Positions 32,666 to 35,437 of a stretch of DNA of 35,657 nt are shown one piece after another. Both the position numbers and the translations under genes were made by a program. The notes beneath the pieces were generated by a model, which saw only the letters and a list, made by a program, of their open reading frames with translations, had not been told where the DNA came from and ran no database searches. The stretch is from positions 1 through 35,657 of the IMG/VR virus record IMGVR_UViG_3300020472_000082, one strand, 5' to 3'. The stretch comes from a virus. The first letter of the stretch is position 1, and every line of letters starts with the position of its first letter.

Positions 32666-33244
32666 TTAGAGTCTTATTGGGTTGGGAGTTAATAATGCTC
32701 GGCTTTTTTGCATTGTCACAATCTTTTTAGCTGGAACAATTACCTCTGCATAAGTTTGATAATTACCTATCATTAGATCTTTTCCAAAAGGATCAACATA
32801 TCCATTAATATATCCAATATATTGCACTCCATTTTTAAGCGTAAACAGGGATGTGTTGCTTATAATTTTAGTAACATCAAATGGAATTGGTGTTGAAGTA
32901 AACACATAAACATACTCGTGATATGCTTTACCTTTAGTGCAAATGGCGTAAAATTGTGAGTTTTCCTGCCATTCACGAGGAACCTCTACTAAATAATTAG
33001 TATAAGTTTTTCTTACTGTAATATCATCGATACAACCTGTGGCTGAAATATATCTTTCAGCAGCTGTTTCGTAAAACTCTCTCCAATCAAATCCATATAA
33101 ATCTGCAATTAACTTAGCTTTACCAACAGATAGGTTTCGATGTCCATTTACAACCTTGCTAAAAGCCTCTCTACTAAAGTTTAGCTTCTTGCAAAGTTCT
33201 GTTTGATTTATGTTATATCTGTTAAGTGTCAATTTGACACTCAT
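32666..33244 (-). CDS. CI-like lysogeny repressor
   Basis: I start this 192-residue protein at the ATG at 33244 because GAAGGAGAT lies just upstream; an ATG at 33274 has no site. Residues about 5-55 form an XRE-type helix-turn-helix ('NQTELCKKLNFSREAFSKVVNGHRNLSVGKAKLIADLYGF'). The C-terminal part is beta-rich ('YAICTKGKAYHEYVYVFTS', 'GVQYIGYINGYVDPFGKDLMIG', 'YAEVIVPAKKIVTM') and should mediate dimerisation. I do not see a convincing LexA-type Ser/Lys cleavage dyad or Ala-Gly site. It is divergent from the Cro-like gene, as in lambdoid switches. Confidence 0.82.
   Translation of the reverse strand: MSVKLTLNRYNINQTELCKKLNFSREAFSKVVNGHRNLSVGKAKLIADLYGFDWREFYETAAERYISATGCIDDITVRKTYTNYLVEVPREWQENSQFYAICTKGKAYHEYVYVFTSTPIPFDVTKIISNTSLFTLKNGVQYIGYINGYVDPFGKDLMIGNYQTYAEVIVPAKKIVTMQKSRALLTPNPIRL
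33225..33241. promoter_or_regulatory. Perfect 17-base palindrome over the repressor start (candidate operator)
   Basis: AGTGTCAA-T-TTGACACT is an exact palindrome spanning the second to seventh codons of the repressor gene. Its half-site TGTCAA also occurs at 33324 in the divergent promoter region. A bound repressor or Cro here would block the repressor gene (autoregulation). Confidence 0.6.
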
Positions 33245-33301
33245 ATCTCCTTCAAACTGGCTGCTCTTCGTCATAGTCTATTGTGTATCCAATACGGCTA
33301 C

Positions 33302-33374: not shown

Positions 33375-33593
33375 ATGTTTTTGGAAGATTATCGGACACT
33401 AAATAAGCTAACTTATGAGAAATTAGCACTACATCTAGGGTTTTCAAATTCCACAGTGGCATTGAGATATTGTAATGGAAGCCGATTTCCTACCCCTAAT
33501 GCGTTAATAAAAATCGAAGATAAAACCAAAGCTGCTGTCACAGCTAACGATTTTGTAGCAAAAATGAGGGAAATGAATGAATGCTCAAAGTAA
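33375..33593 (+). CDS. Cro-like regulator
   Basis: This 72-residue helix-turn-helix protein ('LTYEKLALHLGFSNSTVALRYCNGSRFPTPNALIKIEDKT') is transcribed away from the repressor gene, the position of Cro. It has no dimerisation domain beyond the HTH, as expected for Cro. The ATG has no Shine-Dalgarno and lies about 15 bases after a TACAAT box, so the message may be leaderless or nearly so. Its end overlaps the methyltransferase gene by 13 bases. Confidence 0.8.
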   Translation: MFLEDYRTLNKLTYEKLALHLGFSNSTVALRYCNGSRFPTPNALIKIEDKTKAAVTANDFVAKMREMNECSK

Positions 33594-34438
33594 TAGATCT
33601 TTTTTCAGGCATTGGTGGTTTTGCTCTTGGATTAAAAAGCACAGGTTATTTCAAAACAGTTCAATTTGTCGAAAACGACAAATGGTGTCAAAAAATATTA
33701 GCCAAGAATTTTCCTGGAGTGCCAATACATGAAGATGTCAAAACATTCCAAGGGTATGACTCAGATGTTGTTGTTGGCGGATTCCCTTGTCAGCCCTTCT
33801 CGGTTGCAGGTAAACAACAAGCCATACAAGACGACAGACATCTGTGGCCCGATATGTTTAGAGTTATTAAAGAAACAAAACCTACCTGGGTTATTGGGGA
33901 GAATGTCAGAAATATTGTTAGCATCTCAGACGGCATGGTACTCGAACAAGTGTACATTGACTTGGAAAGTGAAGGTTACGAAGTCCAATCGTTTATTATA
34001 CCAGCTTCAGCAGTCAATGCTCCCCACCAACGATACCGAACATGGATTGTGGCCCACACCGAATGCATGGGATGGGAACAGAGGGCCACGCAGTCAGAAA
34101 AATTTGAGGGAAAAGCAACACCAAATAAATTTAATTACAGCAGTAAAAGACGCAGCATCGGAAAAGCCGGTGAAGATGTGGCCAACACCGAGAGCAGCAT
34201 TGGGTATGACGATGAAGCTGTCACAAGGGATGGCGGATCTTCGACACAAGAAGTATTTGGAAACGGAAGTAGCGTATCAGGAGAAGGCTCCTGGTGGCAC
34301 ACTGAACCCAACGTGGGTCGAGTGGCTCATGGGATACCCAATAGGGTGGACAGACTTAAAGGATTAGGCAATGCAATCGTACCACAAATTGCATATCAAA
34401 TTGGGAAAGCTATAAGAGATGCCGAAAAAGAAATTTAA
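33581..34438 (+). CDS. C5-cytosine DNA methyltransferase
   Basis: This 285-residue enzyme has motif I (DLFSGIGGFALGL), motif IV (GGFPCQPFSVAGKQ with catalytic C70), motif VI (GENV), motif VIII (APHQRYRTWIVA) and the late 'EPNVGRVAHGIPNRVDRLKGLGNAIVPQIA' (motifs IX-X). All are intact, so it should be active. The target-recognition part between motifs VIII and IX is short and rich in Ser/Gly. It overlaps the Cro-like gene and encodes a second long frame within it (33729-34367). Phage methyltransferases of this kind are usually thought to protect DNA from host restriction. Confidence 0.93.
   Translation: MLKVIDLFSGIGGFALGLKSTGYFKTVQFVENDKWCQKILAKNFPGVPIHEDVKTFQGYDSDVVVGGFPCQPFSVAGKQQAIQDDRHLWPDMFRVIKETKPTWVIGENVRNIVSISDGMVLEQVYIDLESEGYEVQSFIIPASAVNAPHQRYRTWIVAHTECMGWEQRATQSEKFEGKATPNKFNYSSKRRSIGKAGEDVANTESSIGYDDEAVTRDGGSSTQEVFGNGSSVSGEGSWWHTEPNVGRVAHGIPNRVDRLKGLGNAIVPQIAYQIGKAIRDAEKEI
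33729..34367 (+). CDS. Candidate overprinted gene inside the C5-methyltransferase (+1 frame)
   Basis: A 212-codon open frame lies wholly within the methyltransferase gene, same strand, shifted by +1. ATG 33729 has GGAG at 33716-33719. The product is not random-looking: 'TLTWKVKVTKSNRLLYQLQQ', then HGLWPTPNAWDGNRGPRSQ, MWPTPRA, and a C-terminal GGTLNPTWVEWLMGYPIGWT. I associate the repeated WPTP blocks and LNPxWVEWLMG(Y/F)P ending with proteins annotated near phage methyltransferases. It has one stop-free frame through the variable target-recognition region. It may instead be a by-product of how conserved methyltransferase codons read in this frame. Confidence 0.5.
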   Translation: MKMSKHSKGMTQMLLLADSLVSPSRLQVNNKPYKTTDICGPICLELLKKQNLPGLLGRMSEILLASQTAWYSNKCTLTWKVKVTKSNRLLYQLQQSMLPTNDTEHGLWPTPNAWDGNRGPRSQKNLREKQHQINLITAVKDAASEKPVKMWPTPRAALGMTMKLSQGMADLRHKKYLETEVAYQEKAPGGTLNPTWVEWLMGYPIGWTDLKD

Positions 34439-34691: not shown

Positions 34692-34959
34692 GTACATATC
34701 GGTAGGAAAAACTAATCCATTAGTAAAACAAGGTAAGTGTAAAAATTGTGGTGTTGCTCTTTATGGCTATAAATTTAAAAGGCGTTATGTGTGTGGGGAT
34801 TGTGAAGGCTCTAAAGGTGAGTATGCACGACCTATCCAGGATTATATTGTTAAAGCACCTGATCTAGATGATGAACGCAAAGAAATATTATTAAGCAATC
34901 AGATTGATGATTTAAAGCGTCAAGTTGCGTATTGGAAGGAGAAAGCTAATGCTAGTTGA
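34684..34959 (+). CDS. Zinc-ribbon protein with C-terminal helix
   Basis: I start at ATG 34684; a longer frame from 34588 lies inside the previous gene and reads as unrelated hydrophobic sequence. The 91-residue product has C19, C22, C37, C40 ('CKNCGVALYGYKFKRRYVCGDC') forming a zinc ribbon, then a charged C-terminal coiled helix 'KEILLSNQIDDLKRQVAYWKEKA'. DNA or RNA binding with dimerisation is plausible. It overlaps the next gene by 11 bases. Confidence 0.7.
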   Translation: MTEYISVGKTNPLVKQGKCKNCGVALYGYKFKRRYVCGDCEGSKGEYARPIQDYIVKAPDLDDERKEILLSNQIDDLKRQVAYWKEKANAS

Positions 34960-35437
34960 TCTTGAATGGTATGAGTACGACATGGCTGCATCAGTCGGCC
35001 TTAATCGTAAGGTACAATCAATTTTAAATGGGCATAGAGATCTCCATAATGTGAAATTTACGCCTATAACTGATGTGGGGTGGTCGGTGGTATCAGCCGT
35101 TGCAGAATATGCTGCTGCAAAGGCTTTAAATAAATCTTGGGATGGAGCTGTCAATACATTCTCAAGACCTGACCTACCAAATATTGAAATAAAATCACAA
35201 CAACATCACACTATTGATGACTATAAAAAACGAAACTTTCTTTTTCTAAAAAAAGACTGTGAAGATGACTTAAATCATTTGTTGGTGCTAATCCATTCTC
35301 ACTTACGTTATGAACTTGCAGGATACATTACTGGAGCTGAGGCTAAACAAGACAAGTTTTATTATGGTGTAAAAGGCAGACCATCAGGGTATGGCGTACC
35401 TATCGATGACTTACACAAGGACTTTGAGAGCCTGTGA
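34949..35437 (+). CDS. Restriction-endonuclease-fold protein
   Basis: I start at ATG 34949 (site AAGGAG at 34936-34941) and not at the TTG 34925. The 162-residue protein has the core E53 ('AVAEYAAAKAL'), D75 (SRPDLPNIEIKS), E80 and K82, the D-ExK pattern, and a late LAGYITGAEAKQDKFYY block. The order 'AxAEYxxAKxL...WDGxxNTF...PDL' resembles a family of marine phage nuclease-like proteins. It neighbours a methyltransferase but is too small and separate to be assumed its restriction partner. Confidence 0.75.
   Translation: MLVDLEWYEYDMAASVGLNRKVQSILNGHRDLHNVKFTPITDVGWSVVSAVAEYAAAKALNKSWDGAVNTFSRPDLPNIEIKSQQHHTIDDYKKRNFLFLKKDCEDDLNHLLVLIHSHLRYELAGYITGAEAKQDKFYYGVKGRPSGYGVPIDDLHKDFESL

Follow-up and report, generated by a model that had tools for sequence, protein, structure and literature searches.

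A viral C5-cytosine methyltransferase gene that probably carries its target-recognition part in a nested +1 frame

In the genomes of cells and DNA phages, long overlaps between genes on the same strand are considered rare. The window analyzed here, all 35,657 nucleotides of the IMG/VR virus record IMGVR_UViG_3300020472_000082, carries a C5-cytosine methyltransferase gene (alpha, frame 0) inside which a long reading frame (beta) is open in the +1 frame of the same strand. Is this nested frame an accident of the methyltransferase sequence, a separate protein, or a part of the enzyme? The answer that we consider quite likely is that one DNA stretch, read in two frames, encodes a two-polypeptide C5-cytosine DNA methyltransferase, in which beta holds the target-recognition region (TRD) and motif IX. 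The features are as follows; motifs, modules, and signals were assigned from the sequence, and any further basis is given in the line.

33581-34438, plus strand: alpha, C5-cytosine methyltransferase of 285 aa with motifs I-VIII and X; motif IX is absent from its own frame
33596-33619, plus strand: alpha motif I (DLFSGIGG), SAM binding
33699-33701, plus strand: TAG that closes the +1 frame upstream of beta
33716-33719, plus strand: GGAG, Shine-Dalgarno-like, 9 nt upstream of the beta ATG at 33729
33729-34367, plus strand (+1 frame): beta, nested ORF of 212 aa wholly within the alpha gene (tblastn, PHROG 1008, substitution pattern)
33776-33802, plus strand: alpha motif IV (GGFPCQPFS), containing the catalytic cysteine
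33951-34007, plus strand: beta CTLTWKVKVTKSNRLLYQL, a predicted beta hairpin; the DNA is constrained in both frames
34028-34057, plus strand: alpha motif VIII (QRYRTWIVAH)
34047-34076, plus strand: first WPTP module of beta (LWPTPNAWDG)
34058-34297, plus strand: variable region; apparently a passive alpha linker in frame 0 and the putative target-recognition region of beta in +1
34176-34205, plus strand: second WPTP module of beta (MWPTPRAALG)
34302-34352, plus strand: putative beta motif IX (LNPTWVEWLMGYPIGWT); also supported by the L272 clade, where IX and X follow each other in frame
34361-34405, plus strand: alpha motif X (GLGNAIVPQIAYQIG); selection is back in frame 0 here

Alpha has the marks of a C5-cytosine DNA methyltransferase: motif I, the catalytic PCQ (IV), ENV (VI), QRxR (VIII), and GNxVxP (X). 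It matches PHROG 363 (1e-75) and Pfam PF00145 (9e-50, the match ending at profile position 182 of 324), and its match with M.HhaI spans motifs I-VIII. In the AF2 model of alpha, the catalytic core is mostly above pLDDT 90 and motif X is confidently folded; residues 175-240 are below 50 and predicted to be disordered, and no other structured segment lies between motifs VIII and X. A TRD and motif IX were not found in this polypeptide: its VIII-X stretch is unselected and disordered in frame 0, and motif IX lies in +1.

Beta consists of an N-terminal domain, the variable putative target-recognition region with its WPTP modules, and the C-terminal motif IX. The number of W/F/L-x-TP modules varies from 1 to 5 among beta proteins, which may be a sign of TRD modularity. 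We take LNPTWVEWLMGYP to be the probable motif IX, judging from where it lies and from a short motif; the DNA of motif IX (34302-34352) reads EPNVGRVAHGIPNRVDR in alpha. The pairwise match of the motif IX part with M.HhaI is weak on its own. The model of isolated beta was of low confidence (pLDDT 61, pTM 0.30), too uncertain for the PDB fold search, which returned no match, and no beta sequence matched a solved methyltransferase small domain in profile comparison. A similarity of the beta profile to Csf1 (Cas8, type IV-A; hmmsearch E.007) was rejected, with hhalign giving 0.4% probability against five aligned Csf1 proteins.

An earlier note on this DNA had described an ORF of 212 codons in the +1 frame, with its own GGAG and ATG, inside the methyltransferase gene. 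We confirmed this ORF at 33729-34367 in 33581-34438, and the double readings quoted there are exact (QRYRTWIVAH in one frame and TEHGLWPTPNAWDG in the other; PNVGRVAHGIP and LNPTWVEWLMGYPIGWT). In the alpha gene, the +1 frame stays open for up to 221 codons; shuffling of synonymous codons gave a mean longest stretch of 72.5, and none of the 500 shuffles reached the observed length. Among 179 distinct related genes, the median +1 open stretch is 262 against 95 after shuffling, with p<0.05 in 99% of them. A length so far beyond the codon-shuffled controls rules out a chance ORF, and the same arrangement in hundreds of contigs rules out a frameshift by sequencing error. The earlier note suggested a check of conserved +1 openness, and related methyltransferase genes do keep the +1 frame open, both in the shuffle test and at the relatives' loci.

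To see which frame is selected, substitutions were counted between relatives in 46 independent pairs with 70-98% identity, from contigs that were best matches and genes restricted to an intact alpha. The shares at frame-0 codon positions 1/2/3 were.21/.10/.69 in the non-overlapped start (codons 1-48),.30/.12/.58 in motifs IV-VIII,.69/.19/.12 in the variable region,.61/.15/.24 in the motif IX stretch, and.22/.13/.65 in motif X. Codon position 1 of frame 0 coincides with position 3 of the +1 frame, which places the selection on the variable region and motif IX in +1. Position 1 exceeded position 3 in 39 of the 40 informative pairs in the variable region (sign test p 7.5e-11), and position 3 exceeded position 1 in 40 of 41 pairs at the gene start. 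Amino-acid change in the variable region was.212 in frame 0 versus.058 in +1. Synonymous change, which the earlier note had proposed to examine, is reduced. In 10-codon windows, the change at 4-fold sites is.22-.34 over codons 1-50 but.07-.14 over codons 91-160; the values fall mostly to 0-.04 between codons 161 and 250 and return to.2-.3 past the end of beta. The gene of this record shows the same codon-position trend against its eight nearest relatives.

These patterns show beta to be a selected protein-coding frame, with the VIII-X region selected in +1 and not in frame 0, and motif IX probably located in beta. Selection acts on frame 0 only in codons 1-50, on both frames at about 90-160, essentially on +1 only at 160-255 (motif VIII to X), and again on frame 0 in motif X. 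By this codon-position pattern, alpha consists of motifs I-VIII and motif X with a passive linker, predicted to be disordered, between them. The claim of dual coding can be refined accordingly: in the variable region, +1 is the functional frame and frame 0 the passenger. Frame 0 is nevertheless kept open across the linker, in 176 of the 176 genes versus about 4% expected with the +1 protein fixed, these genes having been chosen for an intact alpha, which left out a few broken-alpha loci such as L191 and L286. In those few loci alpha is broken and beta intact, with a stop in the alpha linker at L191:94-951 and L286:1173-2204; an error could explain this, as could an alpha split that is tolerated.

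It could be argued that alpha alone is functional, and that codon bias and the shadow of a conserved frame-0 protein together produce the +1 conservation. Near motifs IV-VIII, some of the +1 similarity must indeed be a shadow of alpha. However, such a shadow requires free frame-0 third positions in the variable region, where 4-fold sites are nearly fixed. The substitutions there hit frame-0 position 1 and largely avoid position 3, whereas selection in frame 0 would do the reverse. Moreover, synonymous shuffles break the +1 frame, and the phT4A and HGTV-1 methyltransferases, analyzed likewise, have no excess +1 ORF. We consider this explanation extremely improbable.

If beta is a real protein, how is it made? 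A ribosomal frameshift into +1 after motif VIII would give an alpha-beta fusion (I-VIII, TRD, and IX) and no separately initiated beta. The selected frame does switch close to motif VIII, and split genes with TRD, IX, and X in +1 exist. Such a fusion would lose motif X, though, and beta is a separate gene in one relative, L268. The +1 frame is also constrained upstream of motif VIII (codons ~90-160), as seen in the 4-fold change there and in a +1 amino-acid change of about.10-.17 versus.27, and it is open before codon 60 in all 179 genes. A start codon preceded by a Shine-Dalgarno-like sequence occurs in the open +1 frame within codons 30-92 in 147 of the 179 genes versus 47 expected from synonymous shuffles, an expectation that already includes the requirement of an open +1 frame. 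These over-represented starts and the upstream +1 constraint favor internal initiation, and frameshifting is an unlikely source of beta.

The arrangement is widespread. When the 212-aa product alone was used in tblastn, it found 59 phage records, 57 of them over at least 80% of its length, and three plasmids; the sources include Lacticaseibacillus, Paenibacillus, marine, and Acinetobacter phages. At the IMG/VR loci retrieved with the +1 protein, both ORFs are present and beta follows alpha by one frame, save for a few loci that are rearranged or broken. A second locus set was retrieved by the alpha frame alone, which avoids selection by beta, and all 80 nearest relatives retrieved in this way have a +1 ORF with a significant beta-profile match. 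The same +1 register occurs in MAG contigs of Bacteroidota, Nitrospirota, Acidobacteriota, Planctomycetota, Gemmatimonadota, and others. In one class, that of a gammaproteobacterial MAG, beta was found in 12 of 369 genomes, nested in all 12, with alpha one frame behind. The WPTP proteins, which the earlier note placed near phage methyltransferases, lie inside the methyltransferase genes instead. Homologues outside an overlap, for which it suggested a search, are represented by one clear case, L268 (245 aa, from a Flavobacteriales MAG); otherwise beta is nearly always nested or overlapping. None of the outcomes that the note had set against its proposal, namely a lack of homologues outside overlapping annotations, stops in the +1 frame of close relatives, and free synonymous change, was observed.

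Natural rearrangements support the presence of the TRD and motif IX in beta, as judged from the sequences of relatives. In the L272 clade (41 contigs), LNPDWVEWLMGYP lies in alpha, immediately upstream of motif X, and changes freely at synonymous sites (.36-.40); Pfam PF00145 aligns to the end of this alpha. In this clade the TRD stretch, and no other, remains mainly under +1 selection, with a 4-fold change of mostly 0. By separating the TRD from motif IX, this clade identifies both. In L099 and L324, alpha terminates past motif VIII, leaving TRD, IX, and X to the +1 protein. Genes 89/88 of mycobacteriophage EagleEye (L483:1192-2206), placed apart from the L099/L324 pair in the tree, form an overlapping +1 split methyltransferase with motifs I-VIII followed by TRD-IX-X. 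These two adjacent genes are both annotated as DNA methyltransferase, in the annotation style of many mycobacteriophages. Lastly, L268:2446-3183 encodes a free-standing beta downstream of alpha (hhalign 99.4%, 6.5e-22), and a truncated nested beta is still present inside that alpha.

Beta could also be a real protein with a role other than specificity: as a regulator, as a nuclease partner, or as an anti-host protein docking via a motif IX-like sequence, for instance. This reading draws on Firmicutes phage methyltransferases with a frame-0 TRD, in which the nested N-terminal domain also occupies the +1 frame. These Firmicutes phage and plasmid C5-methyltransferases (L398-L478, e.g., L399:1586-2068 and L421:1541-2149) have complete frame-0 motifs, including TRD, IX, and X. 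Over motifs IV-VIII they carry a conserved nested +1 ORF of ~160-200 aa (PHROG 16143, labelled DNA methyltransferase), with a median of 162 codons versus 61 expected (p <.05 in 75 of 75), and position-3 change is halved in this region. Distant betas have a related N-terminal part (hhalign 96%), although the frame-0 protein that both share may account for some of this similarity as a shadow. Retention of the ORF suggests that the N-terminal part of beta has a role besides recognition. Against a non-specificity role for the whole of beta, its variable region sits exactly between motifs VIII and X, where alpha offers no other structured segment, and in the L272 clade the variable region is mainly +1-selected while IX and X are in frame 0. 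We therefore regard it as improbable that beta is not the specificity part. The suggestion of a second protein, possibly a target-recognition partner, is supported by the +1 selection in the variable region.

In the two-subunit enzyme that we propose, alpha would be the catalytic and SAM-binding polypeptide, with motifs I-VIII, an unstructured linker, and motif X. Beta, presumably made by internal initiation at its own GGAG-ATG within alpha, would supply the missing parts, the variable target-recognition region and motif IX. The two may assemble into an active heterodimer, with beta docking at the position held by the small domain of M.HhaI and deciding which sequence is methylated. The phage would then shield its DNA from host restriction with this methylase. 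Several neighboring genes were noted. Just upstream lie a divergent pair, an HTH repressor-like protein (32666-33274, minus strand) and a small HTH protein (33375-33593, plus strand) whose gene overlaps the methyltransferase start by 13 nt; the pair looks like a lysogeny-type switch. Downstream, 34949-35437 encodes a 162-aa protein assigned to PHROG 18407, a family of unknown function. Its IEIKSQ stretch is reminiscent of PD-(D/E)XK nucleases, and the protein could be a candidate partner nuclease.

Existing annotations treat the locus in different ways. Beta appears as an 'internal gene' in phage Diva, a truncated alpha and beta are given in marine phage KM23-C739, and alpha alone is given in R9.1. 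In Escherichia phage phiEc4 (L480:1085-1897), the 'putative methyltransferase' is the beta frame and the catalytic alpha frame is unannotated. PHROG 1008, labelled 'DNA methyltransferase', matches beta over nearly its whole length (residues 5-210, 1e-26), yet beta is without motifs I-VIII, which makes the label misleading for beta; it conceals the overlap of such proteins with a methyltransferase gene. The two-frame arrangement explains why a protein without the catalytic motifs sits in a methyltransferase-labelled family, and why gene callers name either frame, split the locus, or miss it. With the target-choosing part hidden in the +1 frame, gene finders would miss or mislabel half of an enzyme common in phages. 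If only the main frame is cloned or annotated, or if it is recoded synonymously, one would expect the specificity subunit to be destroyed.

More broadly, about 200 codons are doubly used across very wide phylogenetic distances, and selection is handed cleanly between the frames. We lean toward the view that these genes represent a large phage and bacterial class of C5-methyltransferases with a +1-nested DNA-specificity domain, in which TRD, IX, and X have been re-dealt between the frames several times. A nested N-terminal domain is retained even in methyltransferases with their own frame-0 TRD, and a nested partner protein may be general in many C5-methyltransferases.

For nested or overlapping phage methyltransferase genes, our literature search found nothing beyond the split methyltransferases mentioned in PMC3404938. 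M.HhaI and other monomeric C5-methyltransferases have the same overall motif order, and in the alignment of the L272 protein, LHPRECARVMGYP of M.HhaI corresponds to LNPTWVEWLMGYP of beta. The TRD and motif IX of M.HhaI are in one chain and one frame, whereas motif IX is here in a separate nested frame. M.AquI (CYCGRG) is a split C5-methyltransferase whose second polypeptide holds motif IX and some of the variable region (PMC3404938). L099, L324, and EagleEye show this kind of split. In M.AquI, motif X accompanies IX in the second polypeptide; this was found in L099, L324, and L483 and not at 33581-34438, where alpha has motif X and beta lies entirely within the alpha gene.

The small gene of M.EcoHK31I reportedly sits within the large one and is read in a different frame, and the same is reported for M.EaeI. 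Nesting of the small gene in an alternative frame is a feature shared with M.EcoHK31I. As described in PMC3404938, M.EcoHK31I (YGGCCR; Lee, Kam and Shaw 1995) has a large polypeptide with motifs I-VIII, X, and a predicted TRD, and a small one with motif IX. It is the nearest described enzyme, with the same division of I-VIII and X on the large and IX on the small polypeptide. The difference is in the TRD, which the substitution patterns place in the nested small subunit here and which is predicted in the large polypeptide of M.EcoHK31I in that account. If the published TRD prediction is simply mistaken, the phage enzyme would be an ordinary member of the M.EcoHK31I kind, and the new points would be the breadth of the arrangement, the hand-over between frames, and the rearrangements. 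A correction that can be tested follows: in M.EcoHK31I-like enzymes, the small nested subunit may be the one that holds the TRD.
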